A stretch of 37,298 nucleotides of DNA, from positions 1-37,298 of the IMG/VR virus record IMGVR_UViG_3300025030_000273; one strand, written 5' to 3'. Each line of letters starts with the position of its first letter. Positions within the stretch are counted from its first letter, which is position 1. The position numbers and the translations under genes are program-made. The notes beneath the pieces are model-generated. The model was not told where the DNA came from. It worked only from the letters and a program-made list of their open reading frames with translations, and did no database searches. This stretch comes from a virus. Shown one piece after another: positions 32 through 37,298 of this stretch.

Positions 32-71
32 TTGAATCTCCTTTTTATGTTTGATTGCTACAAAGTCCCAT

Positions 72-127
72 ATAACCAGCGTTCCGACCCGACCAAAAAA
101 CCGGACGGGTCAAACGCCAGCCGTTAT
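72..127 (+). other. attC-like recombination site A
   Basis: A 56-bp imperfect hairpin with attC architecture. ATAAC (72-76) pairs with GTTAT (123-127). GCGTT (79-83) pairs with AACGC (113-117). GACCCG (86-91) pairs with CGGGTC (106-111), with a small CC/GG pair near the loop. Unpaired spacers (CA and CAGCC) separate outer and inner boxes, as in the unpaired central spacer of attC sites. The plus-strand 5' arm carries one more unpaired base (CC against A), which in known attC sites marks the left-hand side and sets the orientation. The stop codon of the gene at 124-840 lies inside the GTTAT box. It has the same plan as the sites at 36433-36493 and 37128-37180. The family assignment is by structure only; no covariance search was possible. 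Confidence 0.6.
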
Positions 128-840
128 GGTGTTTCTATGTACCGCTTTCCATTGAGAAGTCCCGCCTTGTAGAAAAACGGTACTCCTGCCGCATGTGCCT
201 GTGCTTGCAACCGCATTGCCCATTGATCATCAAACGGGCGCTTGCTCTTGCCGTTCTCAGGGCCACAGATAATCCATTTCAGATGACGTATTTCGTATGC
301 GTTTAACTCGACTGGAGACAGCATAGGCTCAAACAATCCACCCACACTCCAACCATTCGCCGCTATTTCGATTACGTCCGGCATCCTGACATCAACTAAA
401 TGCTGGTTATCCATCGTGACCAGAATTATTACATTACCCATTGGCCGAAATTTTGGCATACCGCCAATACCGCTCAAATACGTTGCAGCGTTAGCAGGGC
501 GTTTCGTGCAAATGATGTGAAAATCTTCTGACAGTTCCAATTTCTGAAATAACGCATCCCGCAAGCCATACGTTACATCCCTGTGAAAAATATCATTCCA
601 GTACGTCCACACTCGCGGCTTACGATGGCCGGACTTCGGCAGTATTTCAAGCAACCGTTCAGGGTGTTCTACAATGGTGCCGTCAAACGGCTTTCCACAG
701 TTGAAGCGCATTTGCATTGCTTCGCTCCAGCAATTCTGGCAGCCCGGGGAAACCTTTGTGCAGCCTTCCACCAGTGTCCGTGAATGGGTCCAAAAGCGGC
801 CTTCCAACAACTCTTTTTCCAATAATTTCGATAGTTCCAT
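124..840 (-). CDS. DUF5131 (phage Gp37/Gp68) family protein
   Basis: A 238-residue protein starting at an ATG with GGGAGG four bases upstream. Near the N-terminus it has C27-x6-C34-x2-C37 (GCTKVSPGCQNCW) followed by aromatic-rich segments such as RVWTYWNDIFH and FHIICTKRP, typical of the phage Gp37/Gp68 family (DUF5131). The Cys cluster suggests a metal or iron-sulphur site, but the biochemical role of the family is not established as far as I know. The length is normal for the family. Its TAA stop is embedded in the GTTAT box of the attC-like hairpin at 72-127, so it looks like the cargo of a cassette read towards the integron-type integrase. No hairpin is visible on its 5' side (841-863), so this may be the last unit before core early genes. 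Confidence 0.8.
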   Translation of the reverse strand: MELSKLLEKELLEGRFWTHSRTLVEGCTKVSPGCQNCWSEAMQMRFNCGKPFDGTIVEHPERLLEILPKSGHRKPRVWTYWNDIFHRDVTYGLRDALFQKLELSEDFHIICTKRPANAATYLSGIGGMPKFRPMGNVIILVTMDNQHLVDVRMPDVIEIAANGWSVGGLFEPMLSPVELNAYEIRHLKWIICGPENGKSKRPFDDQWAMRLQAQAHAAGVPFFYKAGLLNGKRYIETP

Positions 841-863: not shown

Positions 864-1202
864 CTAAGCGTTACTCGGCAACGTCTCAGGCGGCTCTGGG
901 AAATTCATCCAATGAGTGATATTGGCATCATCGATAGGCGCACCCATCAGATCCACCCACTGCTCTCCATCATGATAGGCGGGCCAGATCGGCTCGTTGC
1001 TGTCAGGGCTGTATGTCATTACGGTTGTTTCTGAATCAGGCAAAATATCAGCCTGTACCCAGACCGGGGCGCCTCTCCGTAATCCTGCGTCAAAAAAGAA
1101 TTTCAGTTGGCCAACGGTCACTTTCCCGAAAAGCTGCTCCGGGGGACACTCTGACATGGCTACATAACCATTACTGCGGCACCAACTATTGAATTCGCTC
1201 AT
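864..1202 (-). CDS. DUF551-like early phage protein
   Basis: A 112-residue acidic, Trp-rich protein. The C-terminal segment ITHWMNFPEPPE matches the closing motif of DUF551 domains (THWMPLPEPP-like), which are common in small phage early proteins of unknown function. The middle (PVWVQADILPDSETTVMTY) fits the preceding beta strands of that domain. Its ATG at 1202 overlaps the stop of the upstream gene (ATGA), implying translational coupling. Function is unknown. I trust the family call mainly because of the C-terminal motif. Confidence 0.65.
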   Translation of the reverse strand: MSEFNSWCRSNGYVAMSECPPEQLFGKVTVGQLKFFFDAGLRRGAPVWVQADILPDSETTVMTYSPDSNEPIWPAYHDGEQWVDLMGAPIDDANITHWMNFPEPPETLPSNA

Positions 1203-1477
1203 ATCGATTGTCCTTTTGCTGTATTGACGGTCGCACAGTCACTCGGCGCCACCATTTCCATGCCGGCGGAAAGAAAGAAGAGTTGAGCCATGGGCCCGGG
1301 CGCATTTTTGGCGCATTCAAGGGTGGCCAGAAGCTCACCCTCACCGGTGGCCAACATCCGGCGCTTGATCGAATCTGAATATGGCTGCACTACTTGGGGA
1401 TATGTTTCTCGGTATGCCCTGCGGACTGTTTCGCGGGCGGTTTCTAATTTATAGGCAAGTTGTTCGAGATTAGACAC
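1199..1477 (-). CDS. hypothetical early protein, 92 aa, GTG start
   Basis: I chose the GTG at 1477-1475 because AAGGAGG lies five bases upstream. A longer frame to 1576 exists, but its N-terminus is basic, low in complexity and lacks a ribosome site. The protein begins with helical, charged sequence (LEQLAYKLETARETVRRAYRETYP), then a hydrophobic stretch with GPMAQLFFLSAGMEMV. I recognise no family. The stop overlaps the start of the next gene by four bases. Confidence 0.6.
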   Translation of the reverse strand: MSNLEQLAYKLETARETVRRAYRETYPQVVQPYSDSIKRRMLATGEGELLATLECAKNAPGPMAQLFFLSAGMEMVAPSDCATVNTAKGQSI

Positions 1478-1587
1478 GGGATCCTCCTTCTTCAAAAATT
1501 GCATTAAAAAGTGGCTTCCAAATTTGCCCTGTAATGGGCGATCTTGCCGGGGTGCTGGTCTATGCCTTCGTGCCATTGGCCTCTGGC

Positions 1588-1869
1588 TTACTCGTAATAG
1601 CCCCGCTTCCGGTTTTTCTCTTCCACCTGGTACTTGATCATCATAGGGTTGACCATCAGGCCTTTGCTCCAGGCGCGCTTTACAATCTTCCTGATCAATG
1701 TCTCTGTTGAGCCGATCAGATCAAACGCTTCGTGAATTGCATGCTCCAAATTTCCAACCGCCAAGGCCTTGATGATTTCCCAGAGTTCAGAGGCCATGTG
1801 AAACAACTGGCGGGTGATCCCCGATTCATTCACAAACTTGGTTCGGGGAAAAGAATAGTGGGAACTCAC
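1588..1869 (-). CDS. MazG-like nucleotide pyrophosphohydrolase
   Basis: A 93-residue helical protein with the metal-binding signature of all-alpha NTP pyrophosphohydrolases: E28-x2-E31 (ELWE), fifteen residues, then E47-x2-D50 (EAFD). The C-terminal KNRKRGYYE resembles endings seen in phage-encoded single-domain MazG-like proteins. Such enzymes hydrolyse (d)NTPs to monophosphates and can shape nucleotide pools during infection or remove stress nucleotides. The substrate cannot be read from the sequence. The start is a GTG at 1869 overlapping the upstream stop, with GGGAGG upstream. Confidence 0.6.
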   Translation of the reverse strand: MSSHYSFPRTKFVNESGITRQLFHMASELWEIIKALAVGNLEHAIHEAFDLIGSTETLIRKIVKRAWSKGLMVNPMMIKYQVEEKNRKRGYYE

Positions 1870-2177
1870 GCCGCCTCCCTTTGCTTCAGGTACCCGGCAT
1901 ATTCACGGAAAATTTCCAGAGTCAGCTTGCCCCATTCCAGTGTTAAGGCTTTCATCTCTTCAAAAATTCCATTCAGCCAGGCTGTTTGCAGCCGGTCCCG
2001 TAAGTCAGTCAGTTTCCGGCGAAGCTCCACCTTGTGCTCGTCCAGCCAAACCCAAACACCGCCATCATCCTGCAACGTTTCCGGCCATTTATCGCGTATT
2101 ACCTGATCAAGTCGTTGAAGCATTGATTTGTATTCAGCCTTGCATTGCTCGAACATGGCGCGCTCCTCGGTAGTCAT
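1866..2177 (-). CDS. hypothetical helical early protein
   Basis: 103 residues, strongly charged and predicted helical throughout (for example RRKLTDLRDRLQTAW and LEWGKLTLEIFREYAGYLK), probably a coiled coil. A WVWLDE patch sits near residue 42. I recognise no family. It lies between the OB-fold-like protein gene and the MazG-like gene, starts directly after the OB-fold gene's stop and overlaps the next GTG start, so it belongs to the early operon. Confidence 0.6.
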   Translation of the reverse strand: MTTEERAMFEQCKAEYKSMLQRLDQVIRDKWPETLQDDGGVWVWLDEHKVELRRKLTDLRDRLQTAWLNGIFEEMKALTLEWGKLTLEIFREYAGYLKQREAA

Positions 2178-2179
2178 GA

Positions 2180-2812
2180 TTAATAGGGTCGATCTTCTTC
2201 ATTGGTTGGTTTATGGATCTCAAGCGATTCCAGATACGCCCGGATCGGCCCATCACCGCCGCATACTCCATCGGGCTCTTTTTGACGAATCAGGCCTTTG
2301 ATTCTTACCGTATCGCCCAGGGAAACCGGATCAAGCAACTTGTCACCAGGCGCATAAAATTCATATTTTTCTTCCTGCATTTGGTCACCGATGCCGGGCT
2401 TGCAGACATTAACCAGAAAGCGCTGGCCACCATCATTAAGGCCACTTGGTTGGTTGCAAACCTCACCCACCACGATGAAATAAGCGCGTTTCGCGCCGCT
2501 TTCGACCAGCTCAAAACCGAACAAGGTGAACGAAGAAAGAAAAGAACTAGATTGATCCTTCTGATATTGGGAATAGATCCCCTGCAGCTTGAAAAGGCCC
2601 TGCTTGTTTGATGCCCACAGTTTTTTCAGATCGGCAATGCTGCCTTCCTTGTCATACATCCGGCAGTATGCGGTCACATCACCGCTCAGTGTGCTGGACA
2701 CGTCAACCTGAATCGTGACGTACTTTTTCTTGCTGTCTTTGGTCTCCTCGTCCTTGATCTCGGTGATCCGACCGGTGATGACCCCTTTGGTGAAGTGCTT
2801 GGGTACGCTCAT
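2180..2812 (-). CDS. OB-fold-like early protein, possible ssDNA-binding protein
   Basis: 210 residues with two beta-rich segments that read like OB folds. The first is at about residues 8-60 (ITGRITEIKDEETK, YVTIQVDVSS, VTAYCRMYDKEG). The second is near the C-terminus (GDTVRIKGLIRQKE, RAYLESLEIHK). A Ser/Gln-rich linker lies between them. Position in the early operon next to a recombinase fits a DNA-metabolism role such as single-strand binding, but there is no diagnostic motif and no acidic SSB-type tail. GGGAGG lies ten bases before the ATG, which overlaps the upstream stop. Confidence 0.5.
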   Translation of the reverse strand: MSVPKHFTKGVITGRITEIKDEETKDSKKKYVTIQVDVSSTLSGDVTAYCRMYDKEGSIADLKKLWASNKQGLFKLQGIYSQYQKDQSSSFLSSFTLFGFELVESGAKRAYFIVVGEVCNQPSGLNDGGQRFLVNVCKPGIGDQMQEEKYEFYAPGDKLLDPVSLGDTVRIKGLIRQKEPDGVCGGDGPIRAYLESLEIHKPTNEEDRPY

Positions 2813-2934
2813 TTCTTTTTTTCCTCCCAGGATGAACAGTGTAAAAACTCGTCAACTTCAATTTCTTCAGCTTTGCATGCTCCATCATCATTGTGATTAC
2901 AGGAGATGAACTTGCATTTCTTCACTATCGCCAC
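2809..2934 (-). CDS. small Cys-rich metal-binding protein (DUF1540-like)
   Basis: A 41-residue protein that I place at the GTG at 2934-2932, nine bases after GGAGG; a GTG three codons later is possible. It carries C-x4-C then N-x3-G-x-C then a conserved I-x-V and a final HC (CKFISCNHNDDGACKAEEIE). This pattern resembles the DUF1540 small metal-binding domain. It starts inside the 3' end of the resolvase gene, in another frame, and its stop overlaps the next ATG. Function is unknown. Confidence 0.55.
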   Translation of the reverse strand: MAIVKKCKFISCNHNDDGACKAEEIEVDEFLHCSSWEEKKK

Positions 2935-3487
2935 TGTCTTTTGCCTCCTTTGTGATGCGGTAGACGCTCGCAATGCTGATTCCCAATTCATCAGCGGTGG
3001 CTTGCTTGGTCTTGCCTTCAGCAATCAACTCCAGCACCTTCTCGCTCTTGTTTCTGGCGGTCGGCTGGCGGCCGGTATATGCCCCCTTGGCCTTGGCGAT
3101 CCGGATCCCTTCCTTTTGCCGCTCGAGCATCATCTCTCTTTCAAACTGACCAATAGCGGCCAGCATCGATAGCATGAGTTTTCCGGTGGGGCTGGATGTG
3201 TCCAGGTTGATATTCAGAACTTGGAAAGAAACCTTTTTTGCTTCGAGGAGATCAACGATGTTAAGCAGGTGCTTTGTGCTGCGGGCGATACGGTCCAGCT
3301 TGCAGGCCACAACAGTGTCACCCTCGCGTACATATTCAAGCAGGGCTGCCAGCTGCGGCCGATCTTCCTTTATTCCGGAAGCCTTCTCTTTAAAAACCTT
3401 GTCGACCTTGGCCGCCTCCAGCTGCTCCATCTGGGCGGTCAATTCCTGACCTTCGGTACTTACCCTTGCGTAACCAATTCTTGCCAT
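2897..3487 (-). CDS. serine recombinase, resolvase/invertase family
   Basis: 196 residues. The N-terminal catalytic domain has R8 and nucleophile S10 in GYARVSTEGQ, the KLDRIARS motif near residues 83-90 and the long dimer helix (LSMLAAIGQFEREMMLERQKEG). The C-terminal helix-turn-helix is TKQATADELGISIASVYRI. Length and order match Hin/Pin/Tn3-type small serine recombinases. In phages such enzymes invert tail-fibre segments or resolve multimers. I saw no flanking inverted crossover pair, and it sits far from the fibre genes, so resolution or a regulatory role is equally possible. The ATG at 3487 follows AGGAGG. Confidence 0.92.
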   Translation of the reverse strand: MARIGYARVSTEGQELTAQMEQLEAAKVDKVFKEKASGIKEDRPQLAALLEYVREGDTVVACKLDRIARSTKHLLNIVDLLEAKKVSFQVLNINLDTSSPTGKLMLSMLAAIGQFEREMMLERQKEGIRIAKAKGAYTGRQPTARNKSEKVLELIAEGKTKQATADELGISIASVYRITKEAKDSGDSEEMQVHLL

Positions 3488-3581
3488 GACTGCCTCCTGT
3501 CGTTTGCCTCATCAATAATTAATCCCGGGAAGGGGAGGGTGAGGCGGCCCTCCGTTCGGTAGCTAGCCTATCCCCGGAAAC

Positions 3582-3746
3582 TTATGGCCTGACGCCTTCC
3601 AGACCGTGGTAGCTGACTTCCTTGTAAAAGGAACAGTCAGGAACCGGTTGATTACTGCTCCAGGCAGTTATGAACTCCATACAGTACTGAGAGTTGATCA
3701 GTATCCCGCATACGCCTGTGCAACTTTTACATGGTAGATCTGGCAT
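3582..3746 (-). CDS. small Cys-rich hypothetical protein
   Basis: The ATG at 3746 is preferred because GAGG lies eight bases upstream, inside the end of the previous gene; an ATG six codons earlier lacks a ribosome site. The product has 54 residues with C-x2-C-x3-C near the start (CKSCTGVC) and two further Cys, suggesting metal binding. No family is recognised. It is the last gene before a 94-base gap ahead of the resolvase gene. Confidence 0.5.
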   Translation of the reverse strand: MPDLPCKSCTGVCGILINSQYCMEFITAWSSNQPVPDCSFYKEVSYHGLEGVRP

Positions 3747-3751
3747 GACTT

Positions 3752-4123
3752 TTACCTCTGCCATGGTGATTGAGGTTTGATGCTGGCAGAATAGGTAAGC
3801 AGATCGCTCAGGCTTTTTTCCCCCCTACTTTTGGCCGCGATACAAAGCGCGAAAGCAACCGCGCCAGCTGGTATCCCGAGCACCAAACCGCAGGCCAGTG
3901 CGCGCCATCTTGCCGCTTTGTCAGAAGGTGCAGGCTTAGAGGCTATCGCCGCTGCTCTTTGGCTCTCCAGACCAAAGCCGCTGAATAAAACAACTGTCGG
4001 GTCAACAGCTTTTTGTGACACCGCCGGGGCGTTCAGAATTGTGGTTTCAGTCCGGCATTCCACATACCAACCAACCAGTAATAAAACAGCGATCAGGATC
4101 AATCTCCCTCTATATTCTCTCAT
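3752..4123 (-). CDS. membrane protein with two transmembrane segments
   Basis: 123 residues. An N-terminal hydrophobic helix (LILIAVLLLVGWYV) is followed by an Ala-rich extramembrane region, a second helix (LACGLVLGIPAGAVAFALCIAA) and a basic/Ser-rich tail. It starts at an ATG five bases after GGAGG that overlaps the upstream stop. Location in the early operon next to regulatory genes suggests a host-takeover or superinfection role, but that is inference and no family is recognised. Confidence 0.55.
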   Translation of the reverse strand: MREYRGRLILIAVLLLVGWYVECRTETTILNAPAVSQKAVDPTVVLFSGFGLESQRAAAIASKPAPSDKAARWRALACGLVLGIPAGAVAFALCIAAKSRGEKSLSDLLTYSASIKPQSPWQR

Positions 4124-4347
4124 GCTGCCCTCCTTGGTTTTTTGCGGCTTTTATTCCAGCGATCGATAGCTTCTAAAACGTTGTCAGACATACAAATCAA
4201 CAAACAATCCCGGTCAGTCATCATTCCGGTTGATTCGACCAGATGCGGTTCTGAAACAGCGCCACTTTCGGCAATACGCATCAACAGGGCGTTCTGCGCG
4301 GTCAATAGCCGATTGCTCTCCTTTATGGCGGAGAGTGTTGCGTTCAC
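4120..4347 (-). CDS. hypothetical early protein, GTG start
   Basis: 75 residues beginning MNATLSAIKESNRLLTAQNALL, a likely coiled coil, followed by a second helical region (DNVLEAIDRWNKSRKKP). The GTG start overlaps the stop of the CII-like gene (GTGA), and its own stop overlaps the next ATG. It is therefore embedded in a tightly coupled operon. No family is recognised. Confidence 0.55.
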   Translation of the reverse strand: MNATLSAIKESNRLLTAQNALLMRIAESGAVSEPHLVESTGMMTDRDCLLICMSDNVLEAIDRWNKSRKKPRRAA

Positions 4348-4811
4348 CTGGAGCTCTCTTCCTGGAAGAGCTGGAGCAGGGTCCCGACATGGTGCAACAG
4401 ATGGTGCCCGGCAACTTCCAGATCCTGACGCTCAGCAGGAGTAATCCGGCCATCCGCCATAGCCTGGGCAGATTTCTCCATCAGTCCGCCGAACTTCTTG
4501 ACGGTTTCATATAATTGAAAATGTATGTTCTTCAGAGTTGGGGTTTCTTTGGGAAGGGGGATAAGAATGGAATTAAAGGCCTGTGCCAGGTATTGAATGG
4601 GGGCCAAGGCGTCCTCTTGGGCGGTGCCTAGCTTAAGACTTGTTTCAACGATCTTCTCAATCCGGTCCAGCGGGTTGAAAGCGCCGCTGTCCGAAAAGTC
4701 TAGAGTGGGCTCTTGCCACTTACTGAGTGAGCTCGTTGATAAATGTAACTCACGGGCGTGGAGCACAGTCTTGCCGTCGATACATCTCTGTAGTGCCTCG
4801 TAAGTCTTCAT
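4344..4811 (-). CDS. phage regulatory protein CII-like (Phage_CP76 type)
   Basis: 155 residues. The N-terminal half contains a helix-turn-helix-like segment (ARELHLSTSSLSKWQEP) followed by SGAFNPLDRIEKIVE. The C-terminal half ends in a helix pair opening with DGRITPAERQDLE. This layout matches the CP76/CII family of phage regulators, which control early or lysogeny promoters. It is the second gene downstream of the control region, the place expected for a CII-type regulator. The ribosome site is weak (GGCGGGA). The family match rests on motif memory, not on a search. Confidence 0.65.
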   Translation of the reverse strand: MKTYEALQRCIDGKTVLHARELHLSTSSLSKWQEPTLDFSDSGAFNPLDRIEKIVETSLKLGTAQEDALAPIQYLAQAFNSILIPLPKETPTLKNIHFQLYETVKKFGGLMEKSAQAMADGRITPAERQDLEVAGHHLLHHVGTLLQLFQEESSR

Positions 4812-4876
4812 TACAATCCCGCCTTAAATTCGTAATTCATTTAATTAAAATTAATGGGTAGGGTCACATCATGAAA

Positions 4877-5140
4877 CTAAGCAGCTTTGTCAATGACCTC
4901 TTCAGTAATCAAACCCTCAGTCAGTGCGGCGCGGATGATCTCTTTGATCTTTGGACCGGCTTCGCCGGTGTAATCACCCTTGATAAGTGCGTACACGGTT
5001 TTGTAGCTAAACTCTTCACCATTTGGATGCTTATGATCGCGGCACCATTCAGCAAGGAAGCCGCGAGGCTTACGAGTGAACTCAGTCCAGTCGTAATGCC
5101 CAGGGGAGTGAATGATTGTGTCCTTAGAAGTTTCTTGCAT
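4877..5140 (-). CDS. Cro-like small regulator
   Basis: 87 residues from the ATG at 5140, nine bases after GGAG; a longer frame to 5281 has no good ribosome site. The central part reads FLAEWCRDHKHPNGEEFSYK then TVYALIKGDYTGEAGPKI, which fits a helix-turn-helix followed by a helix. It is transcribed divergently from the plus-strand repressor side and leads the early operon, the classic position of Cro. A near-perfect palindrome lies just upstream (5159-5174). The DNA-binding role is inferred from position and a weak helix-turn-helix. Confidence 0.5.
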   Translation of the reverse strand: MQETSKDTIIHSPGHYDWTEFTRKPRGFLAEWCRDHKHPNGEEFSYKTVYALIKGDYTGEAGPKIKEIIRAALTEGLITEEVIDKAA

Positions 5141-5158
5141 GGCTTTATGCTCCGTGTT

Positions 5159-5174
5159 AATTTCTATAGAATTT
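5159..5174. promoter_or_regulatory. palindrome with CTATAG core, candidate operator
   Basis: TTCTATAGAA is a perfect 10-bp palindrome within an A/T-rich 16-base near-palindrome, immediately upstream of the Cro-like gene. The same CTATAG core recurs at 5588-5593 and 5603-5608 in the control region. This suggests binding sites for one of the two regulators. No clear -35/-10 pair could be fixed. Confidence 0.35.
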
Positions 5175-5267
5175 AAGCTAATATGCTGCGGAAGGCCTGA
5201 AAATGCTCTTGAAACCGGAATTGCTGCATAACTTGAAATGTTTCTTGTTCCATGGGAGGGCTCCTTT

Positions 5268-5510
5268 ATGGCAAATGACAAAGTTATTACTTATGGAATG
5301 GACGGCAAAATCAAAGCCGCTTTGCTGCACGAATGTCTCCGTTGTGATAAGGGGATAATAATTGACGGACCGGCCGTAAAGTTAAACGAGCTCTTTTTCT
5401 GCACCTATTGCGGGCTTGATTCGCGTATGTCACTTGACATGGTTCAAACTGTTCACGATTCCTCAAATAAGCGTCCTTCACGGACCGCGGGGCATCGTTC
5501 ACATACTTAA
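5268..5510 (+). CDS. putative zinc-ribbon protein
   Basis: 80 residues from the ATG at 5268, with GGAGGG seven bases upstream. It has two C-x2-C pairs (CLRCDKG and CTYCGLDSRM) about 20 residues apart, the geometry of a small zinc ribbon. The last 15 residues (KRPSRTAGHRSHT) look non-conserved. It overlaps a minus-strand frame (5311-5568) that also looks plausible, and the two cannot both be ordinary genes without antisense conflict. The paired Cys motifs make me favour this frame, at least for its first two thirds. Confidence 0.5.
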   Translation: MANDKVITYGMDGKIKAALLHECLRCDKGIIIDGPAVKLNELFFCTYCGLDSRMSLDMVQTVHDSSNKRPSRTAGHRSHT

Positions 5511-5568
5511 GAAACCTATTCACAGATTTTTCACACATGGCTTGCAGTTTTCTTTCGGCTCTATTCAT
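5311..5568 (-). CDS. alternative early gene antisense to the zinc-ribbon frame
   Basis: 85 residues. The first half is helical and looks protein-like (RAERKLQAMCEKSVNRFLKY, NDAPRSVKDAYLRNREQFE), while the second half is Arg-rich as expected of the reverse of another gene. GGAAGGGGCGGAAG precedes the ATG. Its start is about 97 bases from the repressor start, a typical divergent regulator spacing with the operator-like dyads between, which argues for a true leader gene of the early operon. Only one of this and the zinc-ribbon frame may be real. Confidence 0.35.
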   Translation of the reverse strand: MNRAERKLQAMCEKSVNRFLKYVNDAPRSVKDAYLRNREQFEPCQVTYANQARNRCRKRARLTLRPVRQLLSPYHNGDIRAAKRL

Positions 5569-5587
5569 CTTCCGCCCCTTCCTTTTT

Positions 5588-5634
5588 CTATAGACTTAAC
5601 GACTATAGGAATAATCCCGAAAACAGGAATAGTC
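5588..5634. promoter_or_regulatory. operator-like dyads between the divergent regulators
   Basis: CTATAG (5588-5593) and CTATAG (5603-5608) form a 21-bp imperfect palindrome centred on TTAA. GACTAT (5601-5606) and ATAGTC (5629-5634) form a second inverted repeat. AGGAATA occurs twice 18 bases apart (5607-5613, 5625-5631), with a further GGGAAT at 5655-5660. This cluster lies just upstream of the repressor start at 5665 and is the expected place for repressor and Cro operators. The exact half-site is uncertain. Confidence 0.45.
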
Positions 5635-5664
5635 AATATAAAAATTACGATAACGGGAATTATT

Positions 5665-6066
5665 TTGAGCATTAAAGAAAACCTTAATAAACTGATGGAC
5701 TTAAAGGGCATAAATGCTAAAGCCCTTGAAAAAATTTCGGGTGTCCCCGACTCTAGGATTTCCGATATCAGGAATGGTAAGACTCAGAATCCACGCATGG
5801 GGACTCTGAGCAAACTGGCTACAGCATTAGGAGTTTCTACGGATGTTTTGGTTTCCGAGAATATTGAGCAATATGCCGGTGATCTTAGTAGAATGAAGCG
5901 GGTAGGTGAAATGGAGGAGGAGGGCAGCATCTTAAAGTTAAAAGAGTTGCCCCCCTCAAAGCAGATGTTGGTTGATGAAATACTCAGAATGACGGATGAA
6001 GAGGCTCGGGATCTTGTGACTGATCTTCTTTTAAAACATCGGAAGGCGGACCAACGGCCAGCATAA
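5665..6066 (+). CDS. phage repressor, XRE-type helix-turn-helix
   Basis: 133 residues if translation starts at the TTG at 5665; the frame is open further upstream, but that part runs through the operator-like repeats. The N-terminal domain is a clear XRE/CI helix-turn-helix (KALEKISGVPDSRISDIRNG, then TLSKLATALGVSTDVLV). The C-terminal part is short and acidic (LPPSKQMLVDEILRM, DEEARDLVTDLL). It lacks the S24 autoprotease domain of lambda CI, so induction would need another signal. It leads the plus-strand lysogeny cluster with two exported proteins and the integrase. The start has only a weak GGGA ribosome site. Confidence 0.8.
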   Translation: MSIKENLNKLMDLKGINAKALEKISGVPDSRISDIRNGKTQNPRMGTLSKLATALGVSTDVLVSENIEQYAGDLSRMKRVGEMEEEGSILKLKELPPSKQMLVDEILRMTDEEARDLVTDLLLKHRKADQRPA

Positions 6067-6970: not shown

Positions 6971-8077
6971 ATGGCTGTCAGCCCCTATAAAAACAAAAAG
7001 AAGGAAATAGTCCCTGGAGCCTGGGAGATCATCTACTATCCCGAGGGCGCCAAGGGCAAGCAGAAGCGCAAGGTACTAAAAGATACCACCAAAGCCAAGG
7101 CTCAACTGATAGAGCTGGCCCTGATCCGCCAGAGCGTCCATGCCCCACCTCCCCACGATCCCACTGTCAACCACGTATGGCACGAATGGCTCAAGGATTA
7201 TGCCCGCGACACCGAGGAAAGCACCATAGGCGATGTTACCTATGCCTCCGGCCGGTTATTGCCTTATTTCGGCAAATGGAACCTTTCTCGGCTTACGTTA
7301 CCGCTCTTCAATGGATATATGGATAAACGGCGTGCGGATCTGTGGCGGCCCCCCATCAAAAACCCTGACCCGGAAAAAACCTATGCACCAGGTAAACCGA
7401 CCAGCAAAGGCCGTATCAACACCGAATTGAAGTATTTCGGCTTGTTTTTAAAATACTGCATCAAAAAGAATTATATGCTGAAGCTGCCCTTCGATATCCC
7501 CAAATTTAAGAAATTGCCAAAGCGCACTCCAAACCTACCGGCAGATAAAGAGATAGATATTCTTTTAACCAAGTGCCATGACGATGCCCGCCTGGCAGTT
7601 TTATTATATAATGATGCGGGCCTGAGAAGGGATGAAGGGCTGAATTTAAAAGCTGAGGACGTATTCCTTGACGATGATGTTTTGGTCGTAATAGGAAAGG
7701 GTGATAAAGAGCGGCATGTGGCTATAGCAACTGAACGGCTGAAAGAATATCTGCGAGTACGCATCGACAAAGTAAAAACCGGATTGCTAATGCGGAATGA
7801 TAAGACCGGAGAAGCTTATAAAAACCTACGCAAATCCATTGAAGGGGCAGCAGAGAGGGCAGGCATAAAAAAGAACATCTATAATCATTTGTTTCGGCAT
7901 GCACATATGACAGGCCTGCATGAGCTCGGTGTTTCGGTAGTAGATATCCAAGAGCAAGCCGGTCATGCCGACATCCAAACTACCAGAAGATATGTCCAGT
8001 CAACAACCAAGCGAAGGGTGAACACTATAAAATGCGCCTCAGACACCGTGAGTCTAAAAAAACAAAATAAACAGTAA
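6971..8077 (+). CDS. int: tyrosine integrase of the phage
   Basis: 368 residues. An N-terminal arm-binding-like segment is followed by the SAM-like core-binding domain (about 65-165) and the catalytic domain. The tyrosine-recombinase residues are complete: R219 (AGLRRDEGL), K246 (GKGDKER), H306 and R309 (NHLFRH), H332 (AGHADIQTT) and nucleophile Y341 (RRYVQ). The stop lies about 30 bases from the tRNA-derived core at 8108-8152, so this is the enzyme for lysogenic integration. It has no ribosome site of its own and is probably coupled to the lipoprotein gene. Confidence 0.93.
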   Translation: MAVSPYKNKKKEIVPGAWEIIYYPEGAKGKQKRKVLKDTTKAKAQLIELALIRQSVHAPPPHDPTVNHVWHEWLKDYARDTEESTIGDVTYASGRLLPYFGKWNLSRLTLPLFNGYMDKRRADLWRPPIKNPDPEKTYAPGKPTSKGRINTELKYFGLFLKYCIKKNYMLKLPFDIPKFKKLPKRTPNLPADKEIDILLTKCHDDARLAVLLYNDAGLRRDEGLNLKAEDVFLDDDVLVVIGKGDKERHVAIATERLKEYLRVRIDKVKTGLLMRNDKTGEAYKNLRKSIEGAAERAGIKKNIYNHLFRHAHMTGLHELGVSVVDIQEQAGHADIQTTRRYVQSTTKRRVNTIKCASDTVSLKKQNKQ

Positions 8078-8107
8078 ACTAAATAAGTTATATCCGCATC
8101 CACTGTT

Positions 8108-8152
8108 CTGGGGGTCTAGTGGTCGCTGGTTCGAATCCAGTCGCACCGACCA
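8108..8152 (+). other. attP: attachment site core: 3' part of a tRNA-Pro gene
   Basis: The stretch matches the 3' half of a bacterial tRNA-Pro: anticodon loop with GGG (CTGGGGG), the 3' anticodon stem, variable loop, a T arm (GCTGGTTCGAATCCAGT), the acceptor 3' strand CGCACCG, discriminator A and CCA. The bases just upstream cannot form the 5' anticodon stem and no D arm or 5' acceptor strand is present, so it is not a working tRNA. Such fragments are phage att cores that restore the host tRNA on integration. Phage genes on both sides imply an attP rather than attL or attR. Confidence 0.8.
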
Positions 8153-8160
8153 ATAACCAA

Positions 8161-8196
8161 GCGGGTTTGAGAGCATTTCTCAAACCCGCTTTTTTT
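8161..8196 (+). terminator. intrinsic terminator next to the att core
   Basis: A 12-bp perfect stem (GCGGGTTTGAGA with its complement at 8178-8189) closes a 5-base loop and is followed by a run of seven T. It directly follows the tRNA-like core, so it may have been carried along as the host tRNA terminator and also stops the integrase transcript. Read on the other strand it may end the late operon, though the T run is poor in that direction. Confidence 0.85.
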
Positions 8197-8200
8197 GTTT

Positions 8201-8220
8201 TGGACTCACATGGACTCACA
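8201..8220 (+). repeat. tandem 10-bp repeat, possible integrase arm sites
   Basis: TGGACTCACA occurs twice in tandem (8201-8210 and 8211-8220), 49 bases from the end of the core. An inverted copy with 8 of 10 matches (CGTGAGTCTA, 8047-8056) lies on the other side of the core in the integrase 3' end. This arrangement suits arm-type binding sites of the integrase. It is inference from position. Confidence 0.45.
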
Positions 8221-8246
8221 CGTTCCGGCCGCTGCCTCTTCTGTTT

Positions 8247-8636
8247 TTATTTCGGCATCTCCGGCCAAACCGGATTGGCTGGATCACAGATTTCCGGGAA
8301 ATCCCGTAACTCCTGCCGGTATACCCTCCACTCCTCAAGCTGGTCGGCCGATAACGGCGCATCCGGCATTTGCGACCAATCCGAATCCGATAGCCGCCGA
8401 TTACGCTCGGCGCGGATATCGATCAACAACTCCGCATTAGTCGGAGGAGGTGGCAGCGGCGCGGTAATCCGTTGGCCGGAAATTGGGTCACGCCGCCATT
8501 GCTGGCCCTGGACATAGGCTAGGTAATCCTCATCGCTTATTGTTATAGCTTCAGCCGGGATTTTACTCCCGTGGACCGCCTCAAAATAAAATCCTGTCGG
8601 ATTACCCTCGGCATCAAATGTTGCATATGGTTTCAT
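8247..8636 (-). CDS. tail fibre assembly chaperone-like protein
   Basis: 129 residues. The C-terminal segment (RNRRLSDSDWSQMPDAPLSA, then EEWRVYRQELRDFPE and PVWPEMP) matches the conserved block of the phage tail assembly chaperone family (Phage_tail_APC). The N-terminal part is variable, as usual. It is the last gene of the late operon, directly after the fibre gene, consistent with helping fibre folding or attachment. Confidence 0.75.
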   Translation of the reverse strand: MKPYATFDAEGNPTGFYFEAVHGSKIPAEAITISDEDYLAYVQGQQWRRDPISGQRITAPLPPPPTNAELLIDIRAERNRRLSDSDWSQMPDAPLSADQLEEWRVYRQELRDFPEICDPANPVWPEMPK

Positions 8637-8651
8637 TTTGCTCTCCCTTAA

Positions 8652-9098
8652 TTAATATCCTATTGCAAAAAATTCAGTTGCGATTGACCCGGACGAAACA
8701 CTGCCCTGAAACTGCGCCGCAGTATACGCATGGACATAAACAAGATTCGTCACATTTGAATAATTTTGGCCATATACCCTGTAATTAGCGGTTGTAAATG
8801 CTACAGGAAGGCTGAAATATCCATTAATTGATGTAAGTGTAACCGCACCCCACTGAATGATTAGACCGCTTTTCAATTTTTGCCAGCCAGTGGCTAGGAT
8901 TGTGCCGGGACAATTGGCATCAGTCCAAAAAGAAGTGCCCAGCTGACCCGCCAATTTCAGCGCGTCCCCAGCCTGATATCCAGGTGTACCAGCCAGGATA
9001 TTGTTGATAAATGTTTCCAGGGCAGTCAGGTTTCCATCCTGTTCGGCATTGGTCAACCCGCGCGCCAGTTCCGAACGTTTGAGTAGATTTATCGGCAT
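8652..9098 (-). CDS. tail fibre / host-recognition protein
   Basis: 148 residues from the ATG at 9098, four bases after GGAGG. The N-terminus (INLLKRSELARGLTNAEQDG, NLTALETFINNI) is the short trimer-like start seen in small fibres. The C-terminal half (GLIIQWGAVTLT, GYFSLPVAFTTANYRVYGQ, ATEFFAIGY) has the beta-rich gp53-like tail-fibre fold with the typical IQWG motif. It is encoded between the large tail protein and the chaperone. Confidence 0.75.
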   Translation of the reverse strand: MPINLLKRSELARGLTNAEQDGNLTALETFINNILAGTPGYQAGDALKLAGQLGTSFWTDANCPGTILATGWQKLKSGLIIQWGAVTLTSINGYFSLPVAFTTANYRVYGQNYSNVTNLVYVHAYTAAQFQGSVSSGSIATEFFAIGY

Positions 9099-28847: not shown

Positions 28848-29135
28848 TTATTTCGGTTTGTTTGTACTCACGCCATGAATTATCCTTCTCACCTGCCGGC
28901 ACTTCAGACGATATTTTATAGCCAGTTCCTCATAATTAAATCCGGTGAACTCATTTTGAAGCCGGCGGTTTCTCTCCGATCGGTAAAGATCCTGCAAATC
29001 AGGGAAGGTCAGGCGGAGACCTCCGACCGTTTCCACCATGACCTTGATTATCAGAGGGGCCATATTCCCGAACTCGCGTTGGAACCTGCCAAACAGTTCT
29101 TCCACCGCTTCCTGGTTGCCGGATCTAGTCATCAT
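28848..29135 (-). CDS. Mor-family late transcription activator
   Basis: 95 residues. Central GGLRLTFPDLQDLY and the C-terminal helix-turn-helix (FTGFNYEELAIKYRLKCRQV then RRIIHG) match the Mor/C family of Mu, which activates middle or late promoters. It is encoded just upstream of the late operon and overlaps the preceding recombinase gene by four bases. This suits activation of the terminase-to-fibre operon. Confidence 0.78.
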   Translation of the reverse strand: MMTRSGNQEAVEELFGRFQREFGNMAPLIIKVMVETVGGLRLTFPDLQDLYRSERNRRLQNEFTGFNYEELAIKYRLKCRQVRRIIHGVSTNKPK

Positions 29136-30100
29136 CCCTCCTCGATCTCGTTAAACCGCTTGTCAGGTATTGCCGTTCTCCGTAGGTGCCGGTCGCTTAC
29201 TGCTATGTAAGGAATGGTGGTTTTCGGGTCCTCATGCCCCAGGGCAAGCTGGACCATCAACAAATCCATGTGATTGATACCGCAGCCGCAGCGCGGGCAC
29301 TTATCATCACCACTGTCATAAAGATCGCTGGCAAAGGTCGACCGCATTTTGTGAGCAAACACATCGGCGGAATCAAGGCCCACAATCTTGGCATATTTTT
29401 GAAGGATATCCTGGGCGCTATCGACACTTAGCCGGGTGTAATGCTGGCCTTTCAAGCGAATGAACAACGCATTATGACCGGCATCTATTGTTTGCCTAAC
29501 TAGGATCCAATCACGAAGGGCTTTAGATGGGTTGCGCCGTAAGGTGATGGTGCGGTCTTTGTTGTTTTTTCCGGCCTTGAATTGCAAGCGGATGTAGCCG
29601 CCAGTATCATTGAGTTGATTCAGATCCAGATTACATAATTCAGAAACGCGGGGGCCGGCGGCATAAAGCGTTTTCAGAAGGGCCAGATCACGCAACCCCA
29701 TCAACTTTTCCTTGTCCGGAGCCCCAAACAATAAGCGGAGTTCTTCCGTGCTGAATTTTTGCGGCTGGCTCGCCTGAATCCGAGGGGAGGGGACTGCTTT
29801 GGTCGGATCCGCTGCGCGGTGACCAGCGTAAACCAGCCACCCAAAGAATGAACGCAGGGCTGAGAGCTTTGATGCGCGGCTTTTGTTGCTGACATTCCCA
29901 AAATCATAGAACAGAGCTTTCATCCATTGTTCAATGTCAGCCATCTCCACTGATTGTATGTCAAAAACGAGCTGAGAGGCCAGCCAAGCGAAGAACGAGC
30001 GGGTAACCTTGGCATACTGTTCCACTCCTCGCGCTTGCCTTCCACGGACGATAAAGAGCCATTCCATCCAATCTGCTATGAGCCGTTCAATCTCGTTCAA
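29132..30100 (-). CDS. second tyrosine recombinase, XerC/D-like, with Cys-rich insertion
   Basis: 322 residues if it starts at the TTG at 30100 after a GGGGGG tract; an ATG at 30067 is an alternative, and the longer frame crosses the G-rich repeats. A SAM-like domain precedes the catalytic part with R in AAGPRVSELCNL, a Lys near KNNKDRT, H-x2-R in FAHKMRSTFA, H in LALGHEDP and Y in TTIPYIAV. Between HxxR and the second His is a C-x2-C-x-C stretch (DKCPRCGCGINHMD) absent from ordinary XerC. It is co-transcribed with the late activator, so it may act on replicated DNA. Confidence 0.8.
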   Translation of the reverse strand: MNEIERLIADWMEWLFIVRGRQARGVEQYAKVTRSFFAWLASQLVFDIQSVEMADIEQWMKALFYDFGNVSNKSRASKLSALRSFFGWLVYAGHRAADPTKAVPSPRIQASQPQKFSTEELRLLFGAPDKEKLMGLRDLALLKTLYAAGPRVSELCNLDLNQLNDTGGYIRLQFKAGKNNKDRTITLRRNPSKALRDWILVRQTIDAGHNALFIRLKGQHYTRLSVDSAQDILQKYAKIVGLDSADVFAHKMRSTFASDLYDSGDDKCPRCGCGINHMDLLMVQLALGHEDPKTTIPYIAVSDRHLRRTAIPDKRFNEIEEG

Positions 30101-30190
30101 AATCCCCCCGCGCCCCCCGCTTTTAGAATTAAATCCGTATTTTTTGCCTTCTGACACTTGAAAACCCCCTGCACCCCCGCATTTAAAAAG
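30097..30190. repeat. G/C-rich direct repeat upstream of the second recombinase
   Basis: Two imperfect copies about 60 bases apart, each an A-rich edge then C5-6, GC, C5-6, GC and T/A-rich edge (30097-30129 and 30158-30190). They lie exactly at the start of the recombinase gene. They could be its binding site or a regulatory element. No function is proven. Confidence 0.45.
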
Positions 30191-30639
30191 GGTTTTAGAG
30201 AATGGGCTCGATAATTGTGAGCTATAGGGGGGTGGTTTGACCAAGCCTGTTCAGCTTTTTGATGGGGGGTGGTCTCATCGGTTTTATCTCCTGGCCTATC
30301 ATTGAATTTATGATGATGTGAGAAGGTACCTATCAAAATTGAAACTGAATCCTTGTGACACTGGTGGAGAGCGATTGACTGACTCTCACTAGACCACGCC
30401 CTACTGAGATACTTGATTCCGTCAATCCAGTTCGATTCAAGCTGGTTTTTATCTGACCCTCGACCACAGCCTGCACAGGGAATGTATGAAGCCTTATCGG
30501 TACTGACGGAGAAGCTTGATTACTTACTAAAAGAAATACTCCATCAAATACCTTTTTTAGGGACTAACTAACGCCTGCGGCTGGCTGATCCCTGGAACTG
30601 ATATACGAAAGTCTAAGCGATTCGTCTGAGCCAGGGGTG
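30191..30639. other. non-coding stretch without clear features
   Basis: No convincing long gene. A 29-codon plus-strand frame (30482-30571, MYEALSVLTEKLDYLLKEIL) has protein-like composition but only a weak ribosome site. The region leads into the iteron origin and may hold control sequences for replication. Confidence 0.4.
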
Positions 30640-35067: not shown

Positions 35068-36084
35068 TCAAGCAGCTTTGCTAAGTACAGATGCTCGCAG
35101 CGTATCCAGTGGACTCGGAACATCCGATTGTTGCTTAATACAATGCAGATAGATCATGGTTGTTTTTGGGGTGCTATGCCCTAAGAGTCTCTGCAGGCGG
35201 ATGATCGCCACTTCCTGGGCGTTGCCGGCGCTCTCCAGCCAGTGTGTGGCGTAGCTGTGACGGAAAGTATGACATCCAGCCTTTTTCATCACTCCTGCAT
35301 CACGAATAGCGCGACCAATCCGCTTCTGCACAGCAGACTCATGGACGTGCCATAGTTTCCCGAGCCAGGCCGGATTCGCCGGACGCCCCTCATGTTTTCT
35401 GACCGGACCACTTGCCGGGAACACCCAGAACCAGCCCTGTTCATAAGGTATTTTGGGATACTTCCGATCAAGTGCATCCGGCACCGAAACAGGCACCCGT
35501 TGTTGAGAGTACTGCTCCCAAACAACTCGATTATTTCGCAGATGTTTTTGCATCGGAATGACAACGTCTTCCGGCATGGATACAATGCGTGACTTCATCC
35601 CCTTGCCGTCCCAGATAGTTATTTGCCTACGGTCAAAATCAAGATCTTTTACTCGTAAAGCGCAGACCTCACCCACTCGCATTCCGCACCCATACATCAA
35701 CTGGCCCCACAACTCTCCCAATCCTTCCAGATTGTCCAGCACTGCCTGGACTTCCTCACGGCTGAACACAACAGGTATGCGTGAAGGGCGGGAAGACCGG
35801 ACAAAAGAGGAAATGTCGCCAAGGTCATTTTTCAATACCCGCTTGCAGAGATAAATGATTGAACACAAGGCCTGCTTCTGCGTGGATGCCGCAACATGAT
35901 GTTTAACAGCCAATTCAGTAAGATAAGCGATGACCTTATCTTCTTTGGTTTCTTCAGCCGGGCGGCACCGGATATACCTCATGAATTTGGCGACCCACCC
36001 AAGGTAGGACTTGATGCTTTTGGGGCTTTTTCGCTGCATCATCATGGTTTCGCGCATCTTTTTGATTGTTTCATTCGGATTCAT
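35068..36084 (-). CDS. integron-integrase (IntI) family tyrosine recombinase
   Basis: 338 residues from the ATG at 36084 after AAGGAGG. Catalytic residues: R136 (GMRVGEVCAL), K164 (GKGMKSR), H272 and R275 (CHTFRHSYATH), H303 (LLGHSTPKTT) and Y312 (MIYLH). The IntI-specific extra domain is present at 203-223 (ALDRKYP ... GWFWVFP), and the C-terminus has SPLD as in IntI1. Length is close to IntI1 (337). The stretch between HxxR and the second His is about five residues longer than in IntI1. Ahead of it lie an attI-like box and attC-like hairpins. Integron integrases are rare in phages. Confidence 0.85.
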   Translation of the reverse strand: MNPNETIKKMRETMMMQRKSPKSIKSYLGWVAKFMRYIRCRPAEETKEDKVIAYLTELAVKHHVAASTQKQALCSIIYLCKRVLKNDLGDISSFVRSSRPSRIPVVFSREEVQAVLDNLEGLGELWGQLMYGCGMRVGEVCALRVKDLDFDRRQITIWDGKGMKSRIVSMPEDVVIPMQKHLRNNRVVWEQYSQQRVPVSVPDALDRKYPKIPYEQGWFWVFPASGPVRKHEGRPANPAWLGKLWHVHESAVQKRIGRAIRDAGVMKKAGCHTFRHSYATHWLESAGNAQEVAIIRLQRLLGHSTPKTTMIYLHCIKQQSDVPSPLDTLRASVLSKAA

Positions 36085-36140
36085 GATGTCCCTCCTTGGA
36101 TGGTTATCTAGCCATTGTGGCGATCTAATAGATGTTATGT
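36085..36140 (+). other. attI-like site next to the IntI gene
   Basis: Between the recombinase start and the next gene are two GTT boxes: GTTATCT (36103-36109), identical to the box of site B, and GTTATGT (36134-36140). The second lies six bases before the stop of the gene at 36140-36400, the same distance as in site C. No AAC partner or large hairpin is present, as expected for attI rather than attC. Confidence 0.4.
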
Positions 36141-36400
36141 CACTCTGCAACAGCTTCGTAAATTAAGTCCGGCTTGTTCCTGCCTGCAATCCGCCCACAA
36201 CCCTCGCAGGGATGATTTACGTGGTTCAAGCAACCACTGTGGCTGCATGGTTCGCCTTCGGCTGGAGTCTCAAGCTGCACCATGCTTATGATTTCAGTGC
36301 TACCATCTGTCTTGAGTCGTGAAGTACATTTTACCGTGTGATCTCCACCGGGCCTGCCATAGTCAATGGCTATAAATATCTGGTTCGCGGCTCTTGACAT
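36140..36400 (-). CDS. Cys/His-rich cassette protein
   Basis: 86 residues with strands early on (IFIAIDYGRPGGDHTVKC) and a C/H cluster (CSHSGCLNHVNHPCEGCG) that looks like a metal site. GGAG precedes the ATG. It is flanked by the attI-like box (its stop end) and attC-like site B (its start end), so it forms a single-gene unit read towards the integrase. No family is recognised. Confidence 0.65.
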   Translation of the reverse strand: MSRAANQIFIAIDYGRPGGDHTVKCTSRLKTDGSTEIISMVQLETPAEGEPCSHSGCLNHVNHPCEGCGRIAGRNKPDLIYEAVAE

Positions 36401-36432
36401 GATATATCTCCTTTGAAACGGTCTTTCGTGAC

Positions 36433-36493
36433 ATAACCAGCTTTTTCGACACAGACGGCGATAAGGCCGCCGCTGGTCAAAGCTGATCGTTAT
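36433..36493 (+). other. attC-like recombination site B
   Basis: A 61-bp folded site. ATAAC (36433-36437) pairs with GTTAT (36489-36493). CAGCTTT (36438-36444) pairs with AAAGCTG (36479-36485). GAC-A-CAG-A-CGGCG (36448-36460) pairs with CGCCG-CTG-GTC (36468-36478). Extra bases TTC, A and A lie on the plus-strand 5' arm; ATC is unpaired on the other side between boxes. The gene at 36490 ends inside the GTTAT box. Confidence 0.65.
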
Positions 36494-37110
36494 CTGTCTA
36501 CCCCGGCAGTTTCTGCAATTCGCAACAGGATATTGCGGAATGCCTCCGGGGTTGCGTTTCTGATCCTGGTCTTATCCTTGCCGCCGACCATTGCCATCAT
36601 TCCGATTCGCCTGGCCTTCTCGTAGCCGTACCGCTCCAGGGCTACCGGGTGAATTCGCTGGCCGGACGTTCCCCATGTCAGTGTTGGCAGTGCGACGCAA
36701 CAGGCATACAGCCAAGTCGCTTTCCTGCTCATGTGGCCGTAGTGACCTTGTTCGACATAGCAAGTGTACCCGCCGAAATCGTCAGCCTTCACCCATCCGC
36801 CACTTTTCGGCGGGGTTGTCAGCCCGAAGAAGCGCCAGGCGTGAGAGTGTGCCGGATGCTCCAGAATGCCGCCGTAATTCCGTACCGCCGTCAAAGCGGA
36901 AGCAAAGCAGCCACCATCCTCACCAAGTCGGTACTGGTTCGGTTTATTCGGAGCTCCATGCCAGTACCGGCCCCAACGCTGGCAGGGCGGGTGTGCTACA
37001 ACCGGCAGCGGCCCTTGGTATTTCCGGGCGTCCCTCACTTCGTCCCATGGGTCAACGCCAGGTATTCCGAAATATGCGCCGTCTGTTTCCACAAATAATG
37101 CCGCTACCAT
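36490..37110 (-). CDS. phage cassette protein, possible methyltransferase-like
   Basis: 206 residues from the ATG at 37110, four bases after GGAGG. It has AHPPCQRWGRYWHG, whose PPCQ resembles the catalytic loop of cytosine-C5 methyltransferases, then GGILEHPAHSHAW and CYVEQGHYGHMSRKATWLYA. No S-adenosylmethionine motif I is clear, so the enzyme role is uncertain. Related sequences occur in phages as hypothetical proteins. It lies between attC-like sites B and C and reads towards the integrase. Confidence 0.55.
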   Translation of the reverse strand: MVAALFVETDGAYFGIPGVDPWDEVRDARKYQGPLPVVAHPPCQRWGRYWHGAPNKPNQYRLGEDGGCFASALTAVRNYGGILEHPAHSHAWRFFGLTTPPKSGGWVKADDFGGYTCYVEQGHYGHMSRKATWLYACCVALPTLTWGTSGQRIHPVALERYGYEKARRIGMMAMVGGKDKTRIRNATPEAFRNILLRIAETAGVDR

Positions 37111-37127
37111 AAACCCTCCTACGACAG

Positions 37128-37180
37128 ATAACAAAACGTAGCAGCAGCCGGAAAGGCCGCTGCTGTACTCAAGCCGTTGT
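37128..37180 (+). other. attC-like recombination site C
   Basis: A 53-bp folded site. ATAAC (37128-37132) pairs with GTTGT (37176-37180) with one G-T wobble. GTA-G-CAGCAG-C-CGG (37138-37151) pairs with CCG-CTGCTG-TAC (37157-37168). The extra bases G and C lie on the plus-strand 5' arm, as in sites A and B. Spacers AAAAC and TCAAGCC separate the boxes. The next gene's stop starts six bases after the GTT. Confidence 0.6.
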
Positions 37181-37181
37181 A

Positions 37182-37298
37182 CTACTCTTGCACTTTCGGT
37201 ATATGATCCCCGCAAGTATTTCTGTAGCCATCAGGAGTGGGAGTACCACACGTTGCCGCTCTCCAGCAATCAGGCTCGTCACAAGCGGCCCATATTGA
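37182..37298 (-). CDS. 3' end of a Cys-rich protein gene (runs off the window)
   Basis: The last 38 residues read CDEPDCWRAATCGTPTPDGY and end in CGDHIPKVQE. Four Cys and the spacing suggest a small metal-binding phage protein. The stop at 37182-37184 sits just after the GTT box of attC-like site C, so this is a third cassette gene of the same orientation. The start is outside the window. Confidence 0.55.
   Translation of the reverse strand, partial: SIWAACDEPDCWRAATCGTPTPDGYRNTCGDHIPKVQE

Follow-up and report, generated by a model that had tools for sequence, protein, structure and literature searches.

Integron integrases (IntI) bind attI and the folded bottom strands of attC sites, inserting cassettes at attI and excising them between attCs. 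By the usual rule cassette genes are transcribed away from intI by Pc, though this is not a strict part of the integron definition and single reversed cassettes occur in bacteria. Integrons have been regarded as devices of bacteria that phages acquire by accident. A survey of 10,705 phage genomes lists 17 CALINs, one In0 and three complete integrons, and these last derive from integrons of the host or of class 1 (Qi et al. 2023; PMC9892861). The locus described here lies in a window (the whole stretch of DNA that was analysed) of 37,298 bases, a linear IMG/VR virus record without end repeats. The window very probably carries a complete, phage-owned integron with reversed cassettes that would exchange single genes of the early region; its activity, its read-through expression and its part in counter-defence we infer from the sequence. 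This reading of a phage-borne integron with reversed cassettes rests on agreement between the sequence, the covariance models, the closure signature, the loci compared and the IntI tree.

The locus resembles class 1 and sedentary chromosomal integrons in its IntI family, in an attI by the 5′ end of intI, in canonical attCs opposite intI and in closed cassettes starting at G^TT. It is unlike them in being carried by a phage, in a 5-residue insertion in IntI, in the reversal of its genes and in having no evident Pc or separate intI promoter. With the integrons and CALINs of Qi et al. it shares the presence of integron parts in phage genomes and of methyltransferase cassettes; those, however, either lack intI or have IntIs and arrays that match chromosomal or class 1 ones, and the accessible text of that survey describes neither a phage-specific IntI nor a reversal (PMC9892861). 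In the “reverse” integron of Treponema intI and the cassette genes are likewise transcribed in the same direction, but there intI is transcribed towards attI, with the cassettes following (PMC3607928, PMC4909258). This type was considered for the window and rejected, as attI lies upstream of intI; since attI precedes intI and the genes are read towards attI, it is the cassette genes that are inverted and not intI. The inverted superintegron of V. cholerae is alike in the term “inverted” and in the question of orientation, whereas there the whole array was inverted experimentally with respect to replication, and the genes kept their polarity relative to attC (PMC11023631). Within the open literature searched we found no report of reversed or phage-specific integrons, the closest being PMC9892861. 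Phage integrons as such are already known (Qi et al. 2023); what has no counterpart among the reports found is a phage-specific lineage with reversed cassettes.

Recombinase and recombination sites

By gene content the window belongs to a tailed phage, with a portal and minor head protein (phrog_30703, E 1.4e-48), a tail tube (PF18906), an endolysin, a DNA primase and a repressor-like regulator. An ordinary phage integrase (6971-8077) adjoins the repressor and is separate from IntI. Four site-specific recombinases are thus seen in 37 kb: these two, a XerD-like tyrosine recombinase (29132-30244) and the product of 2897-3487, which reads by eye as a serine resolvase. The features of the locus are collected in Table 1.

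Table 1. Features of the integron locus and the adjoining early genes, in window coordinates
Feature	Position	Strand	Details
intI	35068..36084	-	338 aa from ATG 36084, RBS AAGGAGGG; phage-clade integron integrase
attI	36102..36140	+	crossover G36134^T36135; conserved box GGTTATaC-GCCAttgTGGC-..TAA.-.AT^GTTAT
cassette 1	36135..36489	+	355 bp; start GTTATGTC is the reverse complement of attC-A R'' GACATAAC, 8/8
cassette 1 gene	36140..36400	-	86 aa, towards intI; SD AAGGAG before ATG
attC-A	36431..36495	+	crossover G36489^T36490; R2 28.6 bits; not listed by R1
cassette 2	36490..37176	+	687 bp; start GTTATCTGTC against attC-B R'' GACAGATAAC, 10/10; common to phage L004
cassette 2 gene	36490..37110	-	206 aa, phrog_12600 family; stop TAA at crossover
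attC-B	37126..37182	+	crossover G37176^T37177; top match of both models, R1 21.2 and R2 37.5 bits
cassette 3, cut by contig end	37177..37298	+	partial gene on -, 37182-37298, stop 37182
distal cassette, cut by other contig end	1..123	+	partial gene on -, 1-31, starts at 31 (MEFKFELGAT)
attC-C	70..129	+	crossover G123^T124; R1 12.5 bits (second in window), R2 35.2 bits
DUF5131 (PF07505) gene	124..840	-	stop TAA exactly at attC-C crossover
upstream genes of presumed early operon	864..4811	-	DUF551, SSB-like position, resolvase-like 2897-3487

The initial annotation had proposed an IntI-type recombinase, which is borne out by a score of 300.5 bits against the “integron integrase” profile TIGR02249 (curated cut-off 265) and by a profile of IntI relatives that aligns end to end with V. 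cholerae IntI4 (2A3V, E 1.9e-90), the IntI-specific additional domain included. The catalytic residues R136, K161, H272, R275, H303 and Y312 are invariant in the IntI alignment, and the window protein is 36% identical to IntI1. From the HxxRH(S/T)xAT(H/R) motif to the GH motif there are 20 residues in all members of the phage clade described below, as against 15 in all other IntIs tested, which makes this a private 5-residue insertion of the clade. The attI-like box also stood up, its sequence and crossover being conserved immediately 5′ of intI in about 20 related loci, and blastn homology between related loci begins at attI. A DNA pattern search for attI returned 26 contigs, two of them already known and most of the others expected to be chance matches.

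The attC sites were assessed with two covariance models, R1 made from 14 class 1 and Shewanella attCs (alignment A2) and R2 made from the attCs of other phages only (alignment A5), the window being excluded. For comparison, R1 gives 15-27 bits to genuine Vibrio attCs that were not part of its training set. The three hairpins that had been called attC-like are exactly the top three matches of R2 in the window, at 28.6-37.5 bits, the next reaching 11.0, though the third begins at 70 and not at 72; R1 ranks attC-B and attC-C first and second and misses attC-A, which scores with the phage model only. All three lie on the plus strand and so opposite intI, the canonical geometry that had been proposed, and they share the R''/L''/L'/R' structure with its extra-helical base in a common orientation. 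Sites found with R2 in the other loci are likewise on the canonical strand only. Stem covariation in A5 is 0.542 against 0.144 in shuffles, a value biased towards the model, to which the alignment had been fitted, and double changes (on both sides) are found in 9/9 L-arm pairs. A search of the window against Rfam gave no match. A plain scan for R''/R' complementarity with folding energy was also tried; it produced many false sites, left the real ones unranked, and was replaced by the covariance models and a closure walker.

Cassette closure and gene polarity

Because a cassette derives from a circle, its first bases must complement the R'' of its own attC, and both complete cassettes of the window close perfectly in this way (Table 1). 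The wrap-around of the array across the contig ends, which divide it, we infer, as the record is linear and has no end repeat, and this is supported by homologous genes that run unbroken in the same order in a related phage, L004. The two phages have a common backbone, with primases about 74-82% identical in their best blocks and the proteins at the SSB position about 40% (both aa), and the upstream early genes in the same order. Positions 1 and 37298 both fall inside the cassette array, as though variable cassettes in the population had broken the assembly.

Profile searches gave no family match for the product of the cassette 1 gene. The cassette 2 protein has a PPC motif resembling that of DNA methyltransferases, and its family, phrog_12600, is also found in cassette 1 of the relative L029; a homologue in Pseudomonas phage Persinger is 80% identical (aa), with blastn homology ending within the gene. 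On the minus strand attC-B (window 37140-37164) forms a hairpin followed by ACGTTTTGTT, resembling a weak terminator or attenuator ahead of the gene of cassette 2. The end of the cassette 3 protein resembles the cassette 2 gene of L011, with a nucleotide match to that contig at 37173-37262. For attC-C we have no closure partner in hand, and a search by eye found no closing attC for the DUF5131 gene, which may therefore be either the edge of the array or a decayed cassette. Good ribosome-binding sites precede the gene starts checked, namely those of cassettes 1 and 2, the distal partial gene, intI and the DUF5131 gene.

That all cassette genes of the window point towards intI, as first noted, holds for cassettes 1 and 2, the two partial genes and the DUF5131 gene. 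For the relatives we used the closure walker, a script that recovers known class 1 plasmid arrays with the longest frame always away from intI. It found closure in 14/21 phage loci, compared to about 5% in a random-start null, with chains of 8/8 closures that comprise five cassettes in both L011 and L029, three in both L018 and L025 and two in both L004 and L019. Altogether 27 closed cassettes were obtained from 13 loci of the phage lineage (12 IMG/VR contigs and the prophage L006), one of which, in L015, closes with one mismatch. The longest frame runs towards intI in 24 of these and in none of the class 1 control plasmids, and in 14 of the 24 reversed cassettes the stop codon occupies the very first cassette bases (the TTA of the GTTA core). 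Among the exceptions, L017 and cassette 1 of L018 have a competing reversed frame of good length, and cassette 3 of L011 is a real ambiguity; cassette polarity in L058 and L142 is ambiguous or canonical, that of L058 perhaps canonical. Bacterial integrons taken by the same measure have canonical polarity in 7/10. The usual rule of transcription away from intI is thus broken in the window and its relatives.

Phage lineage and cassette turnover

Searching IMG/VR with IntI alignments gave about 22 contigs, and the IntI lineage is common to about 20 phage contigs from different metagenomes and to prophages in genomes. The statement in the initial annotation that integrons in phages are rare is therefore too strong, given these contigs and the cases in the accessible text of PMC9892861. 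In a tree with 34 other IntIs, most of them from bacterial genomes belonging to the same class as a Geobacteraceae MAG, a single clade (support 100/100), rooted inside the bacterial IntIs, unites those of the window, the IMG/VR contigs and the prophages; the contig L028 falls outside it, among the bacterial ones. Within that class the lineage is found with a high score in 5/244 genomes. The four genomic copies examined there adjoin portal, terminase or head genes, as do two copies in a second MAG (L007 and L142), and for this reason the genomic copies look like prophages. Portal and terminase types vary among these copies, so that the lineage extends over several phage backbones, and attI and reversed cassettes are common to it across them. 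The absence of non-phage members applies to the genomes searched, as members of the clade were gathered for their similarity to the window.

Several of these loci have features of their own. In L005 the IntI is 98.5% identical (protein) to that of the window over the part present (L005:1-620, window 35092-35711) while the rest of its 10.6 kb is unmatched; the two share IntI but nothing else, and the intI module therefore seems to move between unrelated phage backbones. The Geobacteraceae prophage L006 carries at 7420-8656 a reverse transcriptase (phrog_1423, E 2e-113) preceded by a stretch rich in asparagine codons, a locus that looks like a diversity-generating retroelement beside the integron. 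Virus Rctr41k (KX853513), a phage from a methane-oxidising enrichment, has a 36% IntI-like gene at 4680-5678 after co-directional small genes, and gave no attC match with R1 or R2.

The arrays themselves differ between related phages. The cassette 2 proteins of the window and L004 are 95% identical (aa), while their IntIs are only 66% identical, and the blastn block between them (36488-37178, 84.8%) covers cassette 2 to within 2 bases, with its edges at the crossovers. A comparison of gene content between related phages, suggested earlier as a check, shows that it is not identical, the near-relatives carrying entirely different arrays: L004 and L011 are 83% identical in attI and intI, with similarity starting at 5616 against a predicted attI crossover at 5620, and L025 and L029 are 79% identical there, with similarity starting at 5936/9898 against predicted crossovers at 5940/9902. 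In L029 (7285-8437) one 547-bp cassette is present in two adjacent tandem copies with 0 mismatches, which by its sequence is evidently a recent cassette duplication. Cassette exchange between arrays is seen in cassette 2 of the window and L004 and in the tandem copy of L029, which we take as signs of activity. In another phage of the lineage two attCs of equal score and composition (L119:3743-3801 and 5189-5247) suggest a second duplicated cassette. The cassette genes of the family encode C5 and N6/N4 DNA methyltransferases, phrog_12600 proteins, an ASCH protein and small unknown proteins, contents that suggest a changeable kit against host restriction.

Alternative explanations and a possible mechanism

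A piece of a bacterial chromosomal integron could have been captured by chance, as in Vibrio anguillarum phages, and carry no phage-specific function. Complete phage integrons reported to date, in the accessible text of PMC9892861, are all of this kind, and the rooting of the phage clade inside bacterial IntIs implies that an ancient capture did happen. However, about 20 contigs and the prophages agree in IntI clade, attI and cassette polarity although their backbones differ, and same-class bacterial integrons, mostly canonical, are without the IntI insertion, so that we regard chance capture as very unlikely. A capture of the kind described by Qi et al. (2023), with an IntI nearly identical to a bacterial one, was rejected in view of the separate clade, the low identity to IntI1 and the private insertion.

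The lowest probability, bordering on negligible, goes to the reading that the recombinase is an ordinary phage integrase and that the hairpins serve the early genes as intervening terminators, attenuators or RNA-processing sites. The hairpins do lie between co-directional genes, and the minus strand of attC-B, with its ACGTTTTGTT, scores as terminator-like; such sites, however, are not commoner than in shuffles (4 against 3.3), terminators leave unexplained the 8-10 base closures, the conserved R boxes, the covariation in attC register and the homology edges at crossovers, and an ordinary integrase is already present elsewhere, next to the repressor. The integron might instead be real but dead or nearly frozen, its recombination long stopped and its arrays only drifting, given that the window has only two closed cassettes, that the DUF5131 gene and L007 lack a clean closing site and that some contigs lack closure. 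The perfect tandem duplicate in L029, the 8/8 closures in chains of up to five cassettes, the entirely different arrays of the near-relatives L004/L011 and L025/L029, and the intact catalytic residues of IntI in the alignment all argue against this, and we consider it highly improbable, slightly more so than chance capture.

If the phage-owned integron with reversed cassettes is as we describe it, IntI would insert circular cassettes by recombination between attI and their attC and excise them by recombination between two attCs, which would let the phage exchange single genes at one place in its early region. Each cassette gene is reversed relative to its attC, with the stop at the crossover, often as the TTA of the GTTA core, and the ribosome-binding site near R''. 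Being reversed within the cassettes, the genes are read towards attI and intI and are co-directional with the phage operon. This operon would start near the divergent repressor (about 4811-4871) and cover the SSB and DUF5131 region; provided that the contig ends join, it would go on through the array into intI, an ASCH gene and the primase. A phage read-through transcript would then serve the cassettes and intI alike and take the place of both Pc and a separate intI promoter. Cassette 1 and the start of intI are separated by 55 bases, filled by attI, and as this leaves little room for a separate intI promoter, read-through is the simplest reading. A promoter scan of the operon found none above shuffles. 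The earlier suggestion of a phage promoter in place of Pc is plausible.

Reversed arrays can be missed or misread by gene-finding pipelines built on the expectation that genes point away from intI. Because the bottom strand of attC is the one that IntI mainly accepts, the location of the promoter should set cassette polarity, which is testable, and a polarity set by the promoter would separate the phage and bacterial cassette pools. With a chance we place a little short of even, tailed phages may have evolved an integron lineage of their own, in which IntI is modified and the cassettes have the opposite polarity, and which maintains a separate and largely anti-restriction pool circulating among phages and mutually mute with bacterial integrons. 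If our main reading is true, viruses reshuffle their early genes by integron recombination, including DNA methyltransferases that perhaps protect against host restriction.
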